Assembly: GCF_005049285.1 (NCBI RefSeq)
Contig: NZ_SOSC01000004.1
Coordinates: forward strand, 1-64,000
DNA: 64,000 bases
Direction: 5' to 3'
Source of the DNA: Halorientalis salina
GTDB taxonomy: Archaea; Halobacteriota; Halobacteria; Halobacteriales; Haloarculaceae
Shown: in pieces, positions 713 through 55,011 of the stretch
Position numbering within the stretch: position 1 is the stretch's first letter
How the letters are laid out: every line of letters starts with the position of its first letter
Notes under the pieces: generated by a model
The model's database searches: none
Seen by the model: the letters and a program-made list of their open reading frames with translations, nothing else
What the model was told of the DNA's origin: nothing
Translations under genes and position numbers: made by a program

Positions 713-891
713 AGCATCCGCGCGCCAGCGGCGCGCGGTTCCCCGGACGCGAGGCGGGCGAGGCGCGACTGTAGGGAGCGCCTCGAAGCGAACGGGCGAA
801 GCCCGTGAGCAGGCGAGCGTCCGGCCTTTTTTGGTCCAGTTTTTTCGAGGAGGGGTCGCGCCCTGCGCGACCCGACGAAGAAAAAGGTGGT
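713..891 (-). repeat. structured 3'-end repeat, copy 1 (long form)
   Basis: This gene-free stretch is a chain of hairpins ending at the stop codon of the minus-strand gene that follows. A 9-bp stem with loop AGC lies at 718-738. A branched middle section has GGACGC pairing with GCGTCC, GAGGCGC with GCGCCTC, and an inner CGGGC-GAA-GCCCG hairpin. A 9-bp stem GGGTCGCGC/GCGCGACCC lies at 853-873. Between stems are T6 runs on the plus strand, and AAAAAGG just before the stop codon gives T5 on the gene's own strand. The second copy at 35625-35750 shares the ends and architecture but not the stem sequences. A role in transcription termination or mRNA 3'-end formation is inference. Confidence 0.75.
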
Positions 892-31367: not shown

Positions 31368-32876
31368 ATGATGAACGGACGGACGCGGCGACAGTATTTG
31401 CTGGCGGTTGGTACGGCGGGCGTGATCGGTGTCGCAGGCTGTTCCGGCAACCAGGACGCGTCACCGGACAGTGACGAGGACGAGGAGGAGGAAGACGAGG
31501 AGCGCGACGACAGTGTCACCGGTGGTGCGCCGATGTTTCAGTACGACCTCGCAAACACGGGACACGCGCCCGGGGAAACCGGGCCGGCAGGACCGGTGAC
31601 AGACGAGTGGACGGTCGGGATGGACGGGTCCGTGCAGTCGTCACCGGCGGTCGTGAACGGCACCGTCTACGTCGGGAGCGCTGACGACAGCCTGTACGCG
31701 GTCGACGCCGCCACGGGCGAAGCACAGTGGACCTTCGAGACGGGTGGGTCAGTGCGGTCCTCGCCGGCTGTCGTGAACGGCACCGTCTACGTCGGGAGCG
31801 ACGACAACCACCTGTACGCGGTCGACGCCGCCACGGGCGAGGAGACGTGGGCGTTCCAGACGCGGGAGGCGGTCGCGTCGTCACCAGCGGTGGCGGCCGG
31901 CACGGTCTACGTCGGAAGCGACGGCACCGAGGTGTACGCGGTCGATGCCGCCACGGGCGAGGGGGAGTGGACCCGACAGACGGGCGGCGGCGAATCGGCC
32001 TCGCCGGCGGTCGTCGACGGCACCGTCTACGTCTGGAATATCGACGGGACGGTCACCGCGCTGGACGCGGCCACCGGCGACCGCCAGTGGGCCGTCGGAA
32101 CTGACGAGATGACTGCCACGCCCGACGGAAATCTCGACGCTGGGACTGGCGTCTCCGGCGGCGATCGGAGTGTGGCCGTAGCCACCGGTGACGCGCAGCC
32201 GGCGCTTCAGGTGAGTGGAGCGCTACGCTCGTCGCCGGCGGTCGCGAACGGCACCGTCTACGTCCAGCGCCAGCGCGGCACGGTCGTCGCGCTGGATGCC
32301 GTCACCGGTGACCGACAGTGGTCCGCCGGGATGAGCGGGACGGACGATGCAGCGGCGACCGGCAACGGCGGGATCACGGCCCAGGCGAGCGCAGCCGACG
32401 ACCAACCGGGTTCCAGTGCTGGAACGCGGTCGGCCGTCCAGGTCCGCGGGAGCGTGGCGTCTTCCCTAGCGGTCGCGAACGGGACCGTCTACGCCGGGAG
32501 CCCGGACGGAACGGTCGCTGCGCTGGACGCGACCACTGGTGACCAGCAGTGGTCCGTCCAGACAGGCGGCCTGAGCGCATCGTCGTCCGACGGGATCTAC
32601 ACCGAACTGTCGACCGCCCAGACGGTATCGCCGATGAGCCTGTCGCTGGCGGTCGTGGGCGTCTCCGGCGGTGCCGGAGGCTCGTCGGACACGTCCGACG
32701 GCGGAACCGTCTACGTCGGAAGTTTGGGCGGGCGGGTGTACGCGCTGGATGCGGCCACCGGTGATCGACAGTGGCAGTCCGAGACGAGCGGTCAGGGCGG
32801 GTCGTCGCTGACAGTGGTCGATGGTTACGTCTTCGTCAACGGGAGCGAGGGGCTGGTCGCAGTGGCCGGACGGTAG
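31368..32876 (+). CDS. PQQ-like beta-propeller Tat lipoprotein
   Basis: A 502-residue exported lipoprotein: RTRRQYLLAVGTAGVIGVAGC has the twin arginine and lipobox. An acidic spacer precedes about eight WD-like PQQ repeats, each with the pattern SPAVVNGTVYVGS...LYAVDAATGEAQW, consistent with an eight-bladed BamB-like propeller. Repeats 1-3 are very alike even in DNA, with a 120-bp (40-residue) period. Two longer low-complexity inserts (Ala/Gly/Thr/Ser-rich) separate later repeats. No dehydrogenase domain is present, so it is more likely a binding or scaffold protein than a quinoprotein enzyme. Confidence 0.9.
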   Translation: MMNGRTRRQYLLAVGTAGVIGVAGCSGNQDASPDSDEDEEEEDEERDDSVTGGAPMFQYDLANTGHAPGETGPAGPVTDEWTVGMDGSVQSSPAVVNGTVYVGSADDSLYAVDAATGEAQWTFETGGSVRSSPAVVNGTVYVGSDDNHLYAVDAATGEETWAFQTREAVASSPAVAAGTVYVGSDGTEVYAVDAATGEGEWTRQTGGGESASPAVVDGTVYVWNIDGTVTALDAATGDRQWAVGTDEMTATPDGNLDAGTGVSGGDRSVAVATGDAQPALQVSGALRSSPAVANGTVYVQRQRGTVVALDAVTGDRQWSAGMSGTDDAAATGNGGITAQASAADDQPGSSAGTRSAVQVRGSVASSLAVANGTVYAGSPDGTVAALDATTGDQQWSVQTGGLSASSSDGIYTELSTAQTVSPMSLSLAVVGVSGGAGGSSDTSDGGTVYVGSLGGRVYALDAATGDRQWQSETSGQGGSSLTVVDGYVFVNGSEGLVAVAGR

Positions 32877-35624: not shown

Positions 35625-35750
35625 AGCATCCGCGCGCCGCTGGCGCGCGGTTCACCGCCAGAGCGGGCGAAGCCCGCGACGGCGGCTTTTTTGGTCGAGA
35701 TTTTTCAAGGAGCGGTCGCCGACGGCGACCCGACGCAGAAAAAGGTCGTC
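35625..35750 (-). repeat. structured 3'-end repeat, copy 2 (short form)
   Basis: It has the same order as copy 1 at 713-891. A stem with loop GCT lies at 35630-35650 (loop AGC in copy 1). A nested hairpin has CCGCC/GGCGG outside CGGGC-GAA-GCCCG, then a T6 run, TTTTTC, and the stem GGTCGCC/GGCGACC at 35714-35730. AAAAAGG ends it directly at the polC stop codon. The last stem differs from copy 1 (GGGTCGCGC/GCGCGACCC) on both arms while keeping pairing. Confidence 0.75.
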
Positions 35751-38700
35751 TCACATGAAATCGCCGATGCCGCTCTGCTTGTTGTGGTCGTTCTCGAAGA
35801 CCCGTTCGATGGACTTTTCGAGAATACGGAGGCGCTGTTTGGTGTACTCGCGGGCACCGTACTCCTCGGCGACCTGGAGCGCGGTGTCGATGTACTTGGT
35901 GACCGAGCCGTGGTGCACAGTGAGCGTCATGTCGCCGCCGCACTTCCGGCAGTCCCCGGTGAGGGGAACCCGACGATACTTCTCCCCGCAGTCCAGACAG
36001 CGCGTCTCCTGGCGGGAGAACGCCCGGAGGTTGCCGATGATATCGGGCAGGAAGTGGCCCTCGATGACGCGTTCGGCCACGTCGGTCTGGTCGACAGCCC
36101 GGAGCTTTCGTGAGAGTTCCAGCTGGGCGTCCATCTTCGCCATCATGTCGTCCAGGGTCTTATACGCCGAGAGATCCGGCCCGAGCGCGATGTTCGAGGT
36201 GTCGTGGGTGTGTCGGAAGCCCGTGTACTCGCGGTCGGTGCCGAGGTTCTCCTCGGCGATGGTGACGAGGTCCTCGACGGCCTCGGGGTCGGCCATCTCC
36301 CGGGTCGCCTCGTAGAACTCCCGGGGGTACTGGTCGACGATGTCCATGTTGTGGGCCTCGTCGTCGATCTCCGAGGGGTCGATCCGCGAAGACATCACCA
36401 AGGGTGCGTCCATGGAATTGTGGGCGTAGAGCCAGTTCGCGGTGAAGATCGGCTCACCGCCGACCTGAAGGTCGTAGAGGTGGCCGTCGTAGTCGACACG
36501 TTCGACGTTCTTGACCCGGAGATACGAGAGGTCGCCATCAACAAGCGGTCGCAGTTCTGCAAGTTTCTCTGTCACGTCGTCCGGGAGATTACGCGATTCG
36601 AGTTCCCGGACGATCTCTCGGAGTTTCTCCAGCGAGATGTTGTCCCGACGCTTCAGGTACTTCGGGATCAGTTGCTTGATGCCCTCGATGTCCCGCTCGC
36701 GAATCTCCATCAGTGCATCCGGTATCGAGACGACCAGACTCTTGGGGTAGTAGGGGTCCTCGCCGTCGAGGACTCGATGAAGTGGGTTGTCCGACGCACC
36801 GCCCGATACCGTGACCGTGTAAATCGGCTGGCGGTTCTCGTCGCGCTCCCGGTGTGAGACGTTCGCGACCAGTCCGAGCCGATGAAGCAAGAAAACTACA
36901 CCGTCTTTGACGTCTTCGCTGGTCGTGTGGAACCCGACCGTGGTTACGTTGCCGTCGGCCGAGTCGCTCCCGTCGCCCTCGATGAAGCCACGCAGGAACG
37001 CGAGTGCTGTATCGTGAGGAGCCTGCAGGATGCACTCGGGAACGACCTTCTCGCTCGAATTGTACGAGTCGGCGTCCTCGAAGCCGAGATCGTACAAAAC
37101 CTCGCGGAAGACAGCCGGGAAGCGGAGTTCGTAGGTGCGGTTCGACCAGCGACGGCCGGGTTCGTGACCGAACGTGTCCTCGATGATGTCGGCAGCGCGG
37201 TCGATGAGGTCCTCGTTGGCGTTGTGGATCGTCGGACAGACGCTGGAAGTGGATCCTTCCGCAACGAACAGTCCGAGCAACCACGCGAAGTTCTCATCGA
37301 TATCGATAGTACGTGAGATCCCATCAGACGAACCTTCCAGACCGATCTTCACGTCCCGTGGGACCTGAAAGTCAACGAGATCAAGGATACGTTCGAACCG
37401 GTCGTACGGAATCTTCCCTTTCGAGAGTCGATAGGAGAGTCCAGATTTGAACGCCTGGTGAGTCGGGCTCCCTCGTTCCCTGGTCTCCCAGGCGGTCGTC
37501 AGCAGGTCCTCGACGTGATCGTCGATGACGACGTACGGTTCGTCGACGCACCCGGCGACGTCGATAGTAGTCCGTTCGGTCTCGACGTCGAGTTGGCGGG
37601 GTGCAACGACGAGATCGCCTGCCGAAAGTTCCGCTCCAGCAACTTCTTCGATACTGTCGTCGTAGCGGAACAGACTGTGATGTTCGGTCAGCTCCAGCGA
37701 GCGGCCGAACTGCGTCTCGATGCGGACGAGTTCTTCGTCCTCGTCAGCGCGGTAGCGTATGGCTTTCTCGACAGGTTGCAGCGACGCTTCATGGTTCTCG
37801 TCGAACGCGTAGGTCCGCCAGCCCTCCTCGTAGCAGGTTCGCTTCCGGAACTTCCCATCGACCTCCAGCGGTGATTCGAGTTCGTTCCAGAACTCCCCGA
37901 ATGTGAGAAACCGAACGTTGTCGTTGGGGTCGACCGCAACCAGTCGGGAGTCCTCCGCGACGCTTCCGCCGCGCTTGTCCGGGAGGTACTTTTTGCTGAA
38001 GTTCAGCAGGCCATCGAGCAGCAGCATCACACAGTCCTCGTCACCGTCGCACTGGCCGACGCCAATCCCGTTGGCAACGACTCGATTCGTATCCGCGACC
38101 GTAAGGCTGTACGTATACTCGACATCAGACGGGATGAGTTCGACCCGTTCGACTATTTCAACGTCCGTCCCACCGTCAGCGAGAGACTGCGGCAACTGAG
38201 CACCTGTAGGACGCTCTTCACTTTTCCCGAACAACGGGACGGCATCCCCCTCGTTCAACTCGCGTGCCTCGACGTCCGTCAGCCCATCGTCACATCGAAC
38301 CATCGAATGGTCCGGCGTGACAGTAATCGTCCGCCCGCCGTCGGTTGTAATCTCTACCAGATGCTCCGGTGCTGGGTGTTTCGAGACAGCTTCGACCGGT
38401 TTCCGGACCCAGTTCCCACCGTCGTCGATGGACTGGACGCGGATTTCGCCGTCTAGCTCCGCTACAGACGCACCGAAGTCGTCGATGCGCGGGTCGTCCA
38501 GCCGTCGCTCGACGAACTGTGCGATGGACTGGCGTCTCAGCGTCCCGTCATCGTCTTCGTACGTGATTTCGGTGTCCGGATGGAAGCAATTCCGCCGTTT
38601 CGCGGCGTGGAAATACGGATGCGCGTACCCGACGGCAGCTGACGTAAATCCGATAACTCGGCCCACGGTCGCCGCACTGGTGTGTGGTGCCATCCCGAAC

Positions 38701-41405
38701 ACGAGCTCGCCGACGAGGTCCTGGCGGTCGTCGAACTCGTAGTACGCATCGAGCCCGTAGTAGCTCTCCAGGAGGTCGTCGACGAAGTCGGCGGTCTTGA
38801 GCATGTGCTCGGCCGCGCCGTTCGAGAGGACGATGTCCTGGACTTTGAGTTCGGCGAGCTGGTCGTCGTGGACGAGCGGGTCGCCGTGGATGTCCTCCTC
38901 GTAGCCCAGCGCGCGGAACTGGTCGGCGGTGACGTCGAGTTCCTCGGGGCGGACCGACGTGACCGGGAGGTCGGTCATGTCGTAGCGGACGGTGCCGTCC
39001 TTGAACGCCGACACGCCGTGTTTCGCCCGCATGATCCCCTTCTCGATGGGTTCGGGCGTCTTCATCTTCGAGGACAGGCCCTTGACGCCCTTGACGATCT
39101 CAAAGGCGTTCTCGCGCTCGCCGACGTTCTCTAAGGCTTCGTGGAACTGCTCGCGGACGCTGACGGTCTTGGTCTGGACCGGCGAGGCCATGCTCTCACA
39201 GCGGTGACACTCCGCCCGGCCAGAGGGGTCGGGTTCGACCTCGATGTCGCAGTCCCGGCAGATGTAGACGGCGTCGGTCGTGCCGTTGCAGTCCGGACAG
39301 CGGGCCTCGTAGGTCTCGGTGCCGCAGTCGGTACAGCGGCGGCGGCCGACCTGGACCTCGACCTCGCCGCGCGGGTTGTCGATGCCGTCGCCGGTGGCGG
39401 CGGCCTTGCTCACGTCCCGCTGGCTGCCGCCGGCCTCGCCGATGGGAAAGAGCGTGTGGACGGCCGGCGAGAGGTCGCGGGACTCGGATTTCTCGGGGCG
39501 GCCCATCCGGTTCCCGATGCGGGTGGGGGCGCGTTCCCTGATCTCGAAGGGCGCGACCTCGTTGACGGCCCTGATGGCGTTGTCGCCGTCGGCGTACTCG
39601 CGGGCCGCAGTCGAGAGGTCCCCCGCGTCCCACTCGCGGTCGAGTCGGTCGGAAAAGCCCAGCGACCGGACCAGGGGTTTCCAGTCGGGGATCGTCAGGC
39701 GCTCTTCGCCCCGGTGGTGTTCGACCAGCAGGCTTTCGAGGGTTGTCGCGACCTCCTCGCCGTCGTCGGAACGGGGGACGACGAGGTCACCCGCGCCGTC
39801 AGGCCCCGACTCGCCGGACATCACGGCTCCGTCTGTTTCGGCGATACGACCGTTCTCGACGGCGTCGGCCAGCGCCTCGAACTCGGCGACGGAGACGTCG
39901 TGCCAGCAGTAGGTGTATTTCGGATGGATCGGCGCGTCGTACTCGGTGGCCCACTCGATGGCCTCATCGGCGGATGGGTCCGCCAGATCGACCTGGACCG
40001 AGTCGCGCATGGCCTGTACGTCCGCGCCGCTTGCCTCGAAGTCCTGCTCCCACCACTCCACAGTGTAGGAGGCTGGAGCCAGGGGATGATTGTTCTCGAC
40101 GAACTCCCCGTAGTTCACCAGGTACTCACCGAGGTCGAGGATCTTCTCGACGCCGTTCCGGACCTCCAGGGCCACCTCGGGGTCGTCGATGCGGCGCACG
40201 TCGCCGTTGGCGAGTCTGACCGTGGGGCCTTCGATGCTGTCGACGGGCACGACGCCCGCGGCCTTCCCGGGGCGCTCAGTTTTGATCTGGGTGCCCGTCG
40301 CGAGGAAGTCGTCGACGAGGTGCATCGTCGCCGGGTGGACGCCGGCGGTCGCGAAGCCGTGATTCCGCGCGCGACCGTAGCGGAGTCGGAACCCCCCGGG
40401 CTCACAGGGATGGGTGAAGACCGGGCGGCCGGCGATGAGGTCCCGGAGGAACTTCTTCGAGGGGCCGACGCGTGGCGGGCCGTCCGGTTCGTCCGCCTCG
40501 TCGCCGTCGTCGTGCTCGGCGTCGCCCTCCGCCTTGTCGTCGGCGTCGTCGTCGCCCTCGTCCTCGCCGATGGTCCCGTCGATCAGGTCCTGGAGCCAGG
40601 GCCACTCGACCTCGTCCAGATTGCGGGTGTAGCGCTGGATCTTCGGGGCCTTGAGCGCGATCCCCTCCGCGAGGACGAGACACATCCCGCCGCGGGCGGA
40701 GTTCGAATCGACCCGTTCGAGGTCCCGATAGCCCGACACCTCCTCGTCGCCGGTGGCCTCGCCGTCGAGCATGATCGGCATGTGCTCGGCGATGAACTTC
40801 GTCTCCTTCTCCTTGGGCGAGTACTGGAGGCCGGTGTCCTTGTCGTAGAGTTCGATCTCCTCGGCGTAGCGGCCGATCTCCTCGTCGCGGGCCTTGTACT
40901 CGTCCATGCCCAGCAGCGCGCGGGCGTAGTCGGCGACCAGCACGGAGAGGGCCTGTGCGGTCCCGCCCGCCGAGCGAATCGGGCCGGCGTAGTAGACGTT
41001 GACGAACTCCGTGCCGTCGTCGTTTTCCAACACTTCGACGCGGTCGATGCCCTCGATGGGGGCGGCGACGACGCCCTCGGTGAGCAGGGCGACCGCCGTC
41101 CGGACCGCGCCCTCGACCTTGCCGCCCTTGGTGTCGTAGTCGCCGACGGTCCCCTCGACGAAGTCCTCGACGAGTTCCAGTGCTGCTTCCTCGCGGCTCA
41201 TCTCGCCCTCTAGCTCGCGGACGCGCTCGGCGACGCCGTCGATGCCCAGAATGTTCTCGACGCGGTCGGCCATGTCCCGTGCGGTGGGGATCTCCACGTC
41301 TGTCGTGGGGTCGCCGCCGCGCTCGCGGGCCGCCGTCGCCACGTCGAAGGCGTCGTCGAGTTCGGCTTCGAGCCGCTCGAAGTACCGTTCGTCTTCCGGA
41401 CGCAT
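35751..41405 (-). CDS. polC: DNA polymerase D large subunit (DP2) with two inteins
   Basis: A 1884-residue precursor of the catalytic subunit of the archaeal replicase PolD. Removing two inteins (residues 940-1118 and 1148-1663) leaves about 1189 residues. Zinc knuckles CTDC...CPDC...CRDC...CHRC lie at about 690-745. The active-site acidic motif NCDGDED is in the short 29-residue extein between the inteins, so activity requires splicing of both. A second zinc cluster (CLDCGEKY...CRKCGG) is near the C-terminus. The start abuts the stop of the PPC-domain gene upstream (TAGATG), and the 3' end runs straight into a structured repeat. The small subunit is at 58037-59659. Confidence 0.96.
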   Translation of the reverse strand: MRPEDERYFERLEAELDDAFDVATAARERGGDPTTDVEIPTARDMADRVENILGIDGVAERVRELEGEMSREEAALELVEDFVEGTVGDYDTKGGKVEGAVRTAVALLTEGVVAAPIEGIDRVEVLENDDGTEFVNVYYAGPIRSAGGTAQALSVLVADYARALLGMDEYKARDEEIGRYAEEIELYDKDTGLQYSPKEKETKFIAEHMPIMLDGEATGDEEVSGYRDLERVDSNSARGGMCLVLAEGIALKAPKIQRYTRNLDEVEWPWLQDLIDGTIGEDEGDDDADDKAEGDAEHDDGDEADEPDGPPRVGPSKKFLRDLIAGRPVFTHPCEPGGFRLRYGRARNHGFATAGVHPATMHLVDDFLATGTQIKTERPGKAAGVVPVDSIEGPTVRLANGDVRRIDDPEVALEVRNGVEKILDLGEYLVNYGEFVENNHPLAPASYTVEWWEQDFEASGADVQAMRDSVQVDLADPSADEAIEWATEYDAPIHPKYTYCWHDVSVAEFEALADAVENGRIAETDGAVMSGESGPDGAGDLVVPRSDDGEEVATTLESLLVEHHRGEERLTIPDWKPLVRSLGFSDRLDREWDAGDLSTAAREYADGDNAIRAVNEVAPFEIRERAPTRIGNRMGRPEKSESRDLSPAVHTLFPIGEAGGSQRDVSKAAATGDGIDNPRGEVEVQVGRRRCTDCGTETYEARCPDCNGTTDAVYICRDCDIEVEPDPSGRAECHRCESMASPVQTKTVSVREQFHEALENVGERENAFEIVKGVKGLSSKMKTPEPIEKGIMRAKHGVSAFKDGTVRYDMTDLPVTSVRPEELDVTADQFRALGYEEDIHGDPLVHDDQLAELKVQDIVLSNGAAEHMLKTADFVDDLLESYYGLDAYYEFDDRQDLVGELVFGMAPHTSAATVGRVIGFTSAAVGYAHPYFHAAKRRNCFHPDTEITYEDDDGTLRRQSIAQFVERRLDDPRIDDFGASVAELDGEIRVQSIDDGGNWVRKPVEAVSKHPAPEHLVEITTDGGRTITVTPDHSMVRCDDGLTDVEARELNEGDAVPLFGKSEERPTGAQLPQSLADGGTDVEIVERVELIPSDVEYTYSLTVADTNRVVANGIGVGQCDGDEDCVMLLLDGLLNFSKKYLPDKRGGSVAEDSRLVAVDPNDNVRFLTFGEFWNELESPLEVDGKFRKRTCYEEGWRTYAFDENHEASLQPVEKAIRYRADEDEELVRIETQFGRSLELTEHHSLFRYDDSIEEVAGAELSAGDLVVAPRQLDVETERTTIDVAGCVDEPYVVIDDHVEDLLTTAWETRERGSPTHQAFKSGLSYRLSKGKIPYDRFERILDLVDFQVPRDVKIGLEGSSDGISRTIDIDENFAWLLGLFVAEGSTSSVCPTIHNANEDLIDRAADIIEDTFGHEPGRRWSNRTYELRFPAVFREVLYDLGFEDADSYNSSEKVVPECILQAPHDTALAFLRGFIEGDGSDSADGNVTTVGFHTTSEDVKDGVVFLLHRLGLVANVSHRERDENRQPIYTVTVSGGASDNPLHRVLDGEDPYYPKSLVVSIPDALMEIRERDIEGIKQLIPKYLKRRDNISLEKLREIVRELESRNLPDDVTEKLAELRPLVDGDLSYLRVKNVERVDYDGHLYDLQVGGEPIFTANWLYAHNSMDAPLVMSSRIDPSEIDDEAHNMDIVDQYPREFYEATREMADPEAVEDLVTIAEENLGTDREYTGFRHTHDTSNIALGPDLSAYKTLDDMMAKMDAQLELSRKLRAVDQTDVAERVIEGHFLPDIIGNLRAFSRQETRCLDCGEKYRRVPLTGDCRKCGGDMTLTVHHGSVTKYIDTALQVAEEYGAREYTKQRLRILEKSIERVFENDHNKQSGIGDFM
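36417..37964 (-). other. intein 2 of DP2, with LAGLIDADG homing endonuclease
   Basis: A 516-residue intein inserted between RGG and SMDAPLV. It begins with Ser (SVAEDSRLVAVD, block A) and ends WLYAHN, giving the normal His-Asn terminus and a Ser nucleophile on the C-extein. Block B is present around TEHHSLF. The two LAGLIDADG-type helices are WLLGLFVAEGS and FLRGFIEGDGS, both with acidic residues, so the endonuclease may be active. Boundaries were placed by continuity of the DP2 sequence. Confidence 0.92.
38052..38588 (-). other. intein 1 of DP2, mini-intein
   Basis: A 179-residue intein inserted in the catalytic motif between KRRN and CDGDED. It begins CFHPDTEI (Cys1, block A), has TPDHSMVR (block B) and ends VVANGIGVGQ before Cys. 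The terminal residue is Gln instead of Asn, and the usual penultimate His is Gly. There is no LAGLIDADG motif, so the homing function has been lost. Confidence 0.9.
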
Positions 41406-54724: not shown

Positions 54725-54752
54725 CCCCCCACCCCTTCGTTTCGAGTGGAAC
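54725..54752 (-). repeat. origin recognition box, left (minus orientation)
   Basis: Read on the minus strand it is TTCCACTCGAAACGAAGGGG with a following TGGGGGG. It differs from the right box in one of 28 bases. The G run points left, away from the AT-rich core. Confidence 0.88.
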
Positions 54753-54762
54753 TCCGCTGAGA

Positions 54763-54781
54763 GGGTGGGTGGGGGGAGGGG
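54763..54781 (+). other. G-quadruplex-type tract in the origin
   Basis: GGGTGGGTGGGGGGAGGGG: four G runs of at least three with single-base loops, a canonical quadruplex pattern, 11 bp beyond the left box. Confidence 0.6.
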
Positions 54782-54840
54782 TGGACGACGTGACCGGACC
54801 TTCGAAAAGCCTAGAAAAGACGGTTTCTAGGGGCTGTCCT

Positions 54841-54939
54841 AGCCGTCTAGCTAGCTTTGGGGTGTGAATACGTTGTTTCTCTCTACTACGGGTTTGATTA
54901 TATAGTATCGTATTTAGTTCTTCTCTCTTCTAGACGGCT
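54841..54939. other. AT-rich unwinding segment framed by a 10-bp inverted repeat
   Basis: AGCCGTCTAG (54841-54850) and CTAGACGGCT (54930-54939) are perfect inverted copies. The 79 bp between contain TTTGATTATATAGTATCG and further T-rich DNA, by far the most AT-rich stretch of the region. Typical of a DNA-unwinding element. Confidence 0.7.
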
Positions 54940-54980
54940 CTTGCCGCAGGGGGGTCCCCCCACCCCCTCCTTCGGAGCCC

Positions 54981-55011
54981 GTTCCACCCGAAACGAAGGG
55001 GTGGGGGGGTT
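54981..55011 (+). repeat. origin recognition box, right (plus orientation)
   Basis: TTCCACCCGAAACGAAGGGG followed by TGGGGGGG. Its G run points right. Together with the left box it encloses the unwinding segment. Confidence 0.88.

Follow-up and report, generated by a model that had tools for sequence, protein, structure and literature searches.

The window analysed here is a 64,000-nucleotide stretch of Halorientalis salina DNA. It holds two copies of a structured repeat, at 713-891 (copy 1) and 35625-35750 (copy 2), and each of them ends, as the initial annotation had noticed, at the stop codon of a minus-strand gene, with 1 nt between right end and TAG in the first case and 2 nt between right end and TGA in the second (Table 1). 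The gene flush with copy 1 encodes an AstE/AspA-like protein with the C-terminus ...SVGTDLDSY, and has orthologues in 57 of the 57 family genomes searched, the window genome counted. The gene flush with copy 2 is polC, which is interrupted by intein sequence: two intein splicing stretches and a LAGLIDADG-type endonuclease domain can be recognised in it. Elsewhere in the window, tandem direct repeats of ~120 and 231 nt lie inside a plus-strand gene (31607-32774), and two 28-nt arms, 96% complementary and 228 nt apart (54725-54752 and 54981-55008), form an inverted repeat; judging from its letters, the stretch 54725-55008 looks like a separate MITE-sized element.

Table 1. Features of the two window copies and of the genes they adjoin.
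Feature	Position	Strand	Basis
Copy 1, whole element	~714-890	plus	
Copy 1, left end: GCATCCG leader and hairpin 1	714-738	plus	sequence
Copy 1, hairpin 1, CCGCGCGCC-AGC-GGCGCGCGG	718-738		sequence
Copy 1, hairpin module 2, branched; T tract directly after	743-824	plus	folds
Copy 1, first plus-strand T tract (TTTTTT), after hairpin 2	827-832	plus	sequence
Copy 1, right-end hairpin	836-890	plus	covariation; covariance-model match 826-890, 78.7 bits
Copy 1, second T tract	840-845		
Copy 1, last stem, GGGTCGCGC/GCGCGACCC	853-861/865-873		
Copy 1, A tract	881-885		
TAG stop of AstE/AspA-like gene, 1 nt from copy 1 right end	892-894	minus	
Succinylglutamate desuccinylase/aspartoacylase family gene, convergent neighbour of copy 1	892-1857	minus	Pfam PF24827, E=2e-39
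Copy 2, whole element	~35627-35748	plus	
Copy 2, left end and hairpin 1 (CCGCGCGCC-GCT-GGCGCGCGG, 35630-35650)	35627-35650	plus	sequence
Copy 2, hairpin module 2, nested, GAA triloop	35655-35685	plus	folds
Copy 2, first T tract	35687-35692	plus	sequence
Copy 2, right-end hairpin	35696-35748	plus	covariance-model match 35686-35748, 78.9 bits
Copy 2, second T tract	35701-35705		
Copy 2, last stem, GGTCGCC/GGCGACC	35714-35720/35724-35730		
Copy 2, A tract	35739-35743		
TGA stop of polC, 2 nt from copy 2 right end	35751-35753	minus	
polC, DNA polymerase II large subunit DP2, with intein sequence	35751-41405	minus	

Both copies consist of three hairpin modules in the same order, with T tracts placed alike. 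These points had been read in the initial annotation and we find them again in the sequence, together with its finer observations: the loop of hairpin 1 is AGC in copy 1 and GCT in copy 2, the middle module folds as a branched structure in one and as a simple nested hairpin in the other, and both arms of the last stem have changed together. A near-identical match to the branched module of copy 1 is present at locus L027. The right-end hairpin reads, in order, outer arm CCA, T tract, GAGGAG, stem, CGACGAAG, A tract and GGTGG in copy 1, and outer arm CGA, T tract, stem, A tract and GGTCG in copy 2. Two features go beyond the earlier description: the second T tract pairs with the A tract inside the structure, and the outer-stem pairs covary too, CGA/TCG (copy 2, L002) compensating CCA/TGG of copy 1.

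We built an alignment and a covariance model of the right-end hairpin from 25 copies, with an outer stem (CCA..TGG), the T tract paired to the A tract, a tandem G-A internal stretch and the last stem. This structure pairs 94.1% of cells, against 81.9% in shuffles. Its covariation score is 0.269 against 0.061 in shuffled alignments (0/500), and falls to 0.064 or less when the partners are slid. Compensatory base changes exceed both the shuffled and the shifted controls, as is characteristic of a structured element under selection, and this check, suggested with the initial annotation, comes out in favour of its proposal that structure is kept.

Both window copies belong to a family of structured repeats specific to haloarchaea. 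The right-hand 68 bases of copy 1 give 41 blastn matches at E<=10 in their own genome, where the covariance model, searched against a set of 29 genomes of relatives, finds 64 copies at E<=0.01; a separate listing for the window genome by itself has 70 at E<=1. Matches occur in 25 of these 29 genomes (window genome included), with 0 to 64 copies per genome, and named carriers include Haloarcula, Halomicrobium, Halomicroarcula, Halosimplex, Halorientalis, Halovenus, Salinibaculum and Salinarchaeum; in a 60-genome sample of the phylum, no genome outside the order of the window had a match. Rfam gave no match for the whole window at gathering score nor in a permissive search around copy 1, virus and phage collections gave none, and plasmids gave two weak partial matches only. 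We found no account of this element in the open literature, a search outside which most subscription journals lay, so that an earlier description is possible. Genome-wide statistics are taken from loci fetched around copies. Elements are ~90-190 nt long and built of hairpin modules; the left half is modular: its second hairpin varies and precedes a T tract, and some copies have extra hairpin pairs at fixed places. The GCATCCG..CGGTTCA left-end hairpin is found in 54 of the 107 unique copies (one mismatch allowed on each side), and C(GNA)G triloops in 89/107. A second subtype (TTTTAGTCCAGG ... GTAAAAAGTGG) lies near copies of the first at L018:2171, L019:1280, L022:1272 and L025:1050.

The T tracts recall termination signals: a T5C motif gives 95% termination in vivo in Haloferax volcanii (PMC7237163). 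T5C is present on both strands in both window copies, the A tract of copy 1 being a T5C when read on the minus strand. Among copies in general, tracts of T4+ on both strands are nearly universal, and convergent-flush copies have a minus-strand T4+ in 30 of 30 cases and a strict T5C in 12 of 30. A T4+ within 20 nt of the stop is found in only 10 of the 64 genes of the window, so the T tract lying 6-7 nt after both flush stops is not what most genes have. Among relatives, four from one genus (L212, L214, L215 and L219) have a decayed copy at the AstE-like gene but have kept the T tract beside the stop. As T5C ends transcripts, as T4+ tracts stand on both strands and as the T tract outlasts decayed copies, the element appears to act as a two-way terminator or insulator. 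A T tract (T4+/T5C) shortly downstream of stop codons is the mark of archaeal intrinsic terminators, and by their letters the copies would qualify; T5C-type tracts on both strands beside stop codons thus lend indirect support to the 3'-end-forming role that the initial annotation had put forward. Against a two-way terminator, a given strand has a strict T5C in no more than roughly one half to two thirds of copies. Against a plain 3'-UTR terminator, the right-end structure favours the plus strand in convergent copies too, that is, the strand opposite to the 3' UTR of the flush gene. With RNA parameters the plus strand folds better in 100/107 copies, convergent ones included, a bias much of which is composition according to shuffled controls and which a plain 3'-UTR terminator does not require. 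A function solely as the 3' UTR of the flush gene is weakened by plus-strand features that persist where the other strand is the UTR, with composition explaining part of the bias.

Distances from the right end to the next gene were obtained for 113 copies, using a codon-usage gene caller trained on the window. Among the 55 copies with a convergent neighbour, the stop codon lies at -4 to +5 nt from the right end in 30, and in none at 6-30 nt; for random intergenic points the share at 0-5 nt is 3.2% (p=2.5e-30, a nominal value, related copies not being independent). For neighbours in the same direction, start-codon distances cluster at 39-41 nt; reading on past the right end leads directly into a BRE/TATA-like promoter, the right end lying 3-4 nt upstream of promoters. 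Named genomes replicate both patterns, with convergent stops at -2 to 4 nt in 9/18 and start codons at 38-49 nt in 11/28. Placement relative to genes, a check suggested with the initial annotation, is therefore not random, and the sharp, replicated distance peaks lead us to reject chance placement or the selection of harmless sites alone. Copies also adjoin tRNA 3' ends, at L006/L042, L025/L095 and L110, with short duplicated tRNA ends.

In 34 of the 113 copies, and in 18 of a further 46 from named genomes, or about 30-40%, the DNA to the right of the element is a repeat of the 3' end of the gene on its left. The full gene copy ends at the left end of the element and the duplicate begins at its right end, as a rule 0-7 nt after GGTGG, with lengths from ~18 to >110 nt; some loci are tandem arrays of the form gene, element, gene end, element, gene end. 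Duplicated ends differ at 51 synonymous and 13 nonsynonymous codons (51/64), where the neutral expectation for the synonymous share is 23% (p=3e-21; p=1e-4 under a half-constrained, mixed null). Because the differences are mostly synonymous, both ends have evolved as coding sequence, which is what one would see in orthologous ends taken from different species. The 3' end of polC bears the element in many genera: among 30 fetched genomes, it is flush and convergent in ~11, and in three a sense-oriented element, intact or decayed, comes with a duplicated end. The element also makes use of argF 3' ends across many genera: at least six right junctions can be told apart there, with no obvious common core, and most genomes with an argF fragment have it beginning at query base 437. 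At L239 (G014), argF is followed by two tandem truncated units, each of half an element and ~18 nt of argF end, which from their sequence we take as a product of decay or slippage. In G008 (L248) and G054 (L254), a pair of genes that reads as a PIN/AbrB-like toxin-antitoxin module separates the element from the displaced argF end; the toxin gene of G008 is about four codons shorter, and its TGA stop coincides with the right end of an element.

Orthologous genes without the element do exist among relatives, and they document its movement. The argF body of G057 is 96% identical to that of the element-free G043; G057 carries an insert of 355 bp made of elements and argF ends, and the DNA beyond the displaced end is 91% identical to the empty site of G043. 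Compared with G044, the displaced end in G070 is 95% identical to the native end, the gene-attached end 82% and the gene body 91%. A foreign gene end with its element thus sits upstream of the displaced native end when sister genomes are compared, showing that the unit has moved horizontally; these insertions back the suggestion of a small mobile palindromic repeat in the initial annotation.

The reading we favour, and to which we would give roughly even chances, is that the element is a bidirectional T-tract terminator or insulator travelling as a cassette anchored to gene ends, by homologous recombination. Its plus-strand T tracts would stop transcripts entering from the left, and its minus-strand T tract (the A tract) would stop the convergent gene just past its stop codon. 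The unit of gene 3' end and element, with or without a duplicated gene 3' end, would arrive on foreign DNA and recombine with the orthologous gene, the native end being replaced and pushed to the far side of the element. The duplicated gene ends would be the homologous arms, the donor inserting by a crossover within the conserved gene end, and recombination between the direct repeats could remove the cassette again. The flush position of the right end at stops and promoters may have arisen as DNA of no use, lying between a retained element and the functional site that follows, was lost; such flank erosion gives no obvious reason for the sharp cut-off with nothing at 6-30 nt. The first acquisition of the element by a new gene lies outside this explanation.

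A clearly less probable account, and the one that survives best after it, makes the repeat a dedicated mobile element: a recombinase or transposase acting in trans would recognise the plus-strand hairpin as single-stranded DNA and insert it at gene ends, with termination as a side effect that allows insertions to be tolerated. In its favour, convergent copies keep the tandem G-A positions, the C(GNA)G triloops and the stronger fold of the plus strand; RNA polymerase would be halted at the T tracts before it had made the whole hairpin; and most argF fragments share one starting point. The variety of argF right junctions tells against it, as do element-rich genomes without a match to a Y1 transposase (Y1 being what was surveyed among recombinases) and the searches of phage, virus and plasmid collections. 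Of much the same, tentative standing, and a shade lower, is the broader idea of a new archaeal mobile system in which DNA hairpins recognised by their structure move as cassettes fused to gene 3' ends, form tandem arrays at conserved core genes such as argF, polC and tRNA genes, carry cargo such as the toxin-antitoxin pair and serve as portable gene-boundary modules, with a putative host or trans-acting recombinase.

It is improbable that these are selfish REP- or PATE-like palindromic repeats without host function, found at gene ends where insertions do no harm. Other transposase-free palindromic repeats are known from haloarchaea (PATEs and SMRs; PMC3119063), and the variation in copy number between genomes would suit this account. 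Avoidance of harm predicts scatter over intergenic DNA, however, and not the peaks seen at stops (0-5 nt) and ahead of promoters (3-4 nt); nor would it lead one to expect compensatory change that keeps the structure over great divergence, or the recurrence of the element at the 3' end of polC across many genera. Lower still we place a small RNA or structured 3' UTR made from the plus strand and acting at the RNA level, in stability or regulation. Departures from pairing on that strand are more often G-U than A-C (27 vs 19 in all) and it is the better folder, yet this strand bias is largely composition, Rfam gives no match, and ~30 copies, both window copies included, have no gene that transcribes the plus strand into the element. 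A transposase with very long staggered cuts, leaving the repeated gene ends as target-site duplications, would fit duplicates that begin where the element ends and a full copy that stops where it starts, but is most improbable and rejected on synonymous divergence and sister comparison, since a new duplicate would be identical and its spare would decay codon-blind, the displaced end of G070 and not the gene-attached one matches the native end of the sister, and lengths vary.

Whichever account is preferred, the nearest described things are the PATE (palindrome-associated transposable elements) and SMR repeats of Haloquadratum walsbyi (PMC3119063), REP elements and integron attC sites. Like PATEs and SMRs, the element is short, non-coding, palindromic, multicopy, haloarchaeal and sequence-heterogeneous, and some copies are invaded by other modules; it differs from PATEs, which are linked to ends of the IS605 type and leave the target unduplicated (PMC3119063), in its duplicated gene 3' ends and in a right end flush with functional boundaries. 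IS200/IS605 Y1 transposases (PF01797) do not track element copy number and gave no match in G005, G009, G011, G012 and G020, which have 11-42 copies, although past activity is possible; dependence on IS605/Y1 is weakened accordingly. Two features that define PATEs, a Y1 transposase in the genome and the lack of a flanking duplication, were thus looked for and neither was found. The copies, read by eye, have no terminal inverted repeats joining left and right ends of the kind that MITEs show, and in place of a short target-site duplication there are gene ends of variable length with coding-like divergence.

REP/BIME sequences of bacteria are multicopy palindromes at gene 3' ends, with roles as terminators or at mRNA ends and with suspected mobility. 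In comparison, the haloarchaeal element is larger and modular, has T and A tracts inside its stem and travels with duplicated gene ends; no common tetranucleotide tag was seen in it on informal inspection. The integron attC is a structured, sequence-variable and covarying site right after a stop codon, found in tandem arrays whose cassettes are exchanged between species. All of these traits, interspecies exchange included, are shared by the element, which duplicates the host gene's own 3' end whereas an integron brings an independent cassette gene. With the archaeal T5C intrinsic terminators (PMC7237163) it shares T5C-type tracts near stop codons, but those are tracts evolved locally and this is a conserved, multicopy, structured element that moves horizontally. 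Deletion-coupled insertions and repeat-mediated deletions in Haloquadratum (PMC3119063) likewise involve foreign DNA, sharp junctions and direct repeats that permit removal; in the present case the junctions have a single defined element in common, and it duplicates gene ends.

These observations point to a concrete route for the exchange of gene ends and termination signals between archaeal species, and the natural insertions with empty sites in sister genomes make that route testable. Such exchange could account for gene fragments without an assignment in haloarchaea and for the foreign DNA seen where their core genes end, at the 3' side, and the element may provide ready-made two-way terminators for haloarchaeal genetics.
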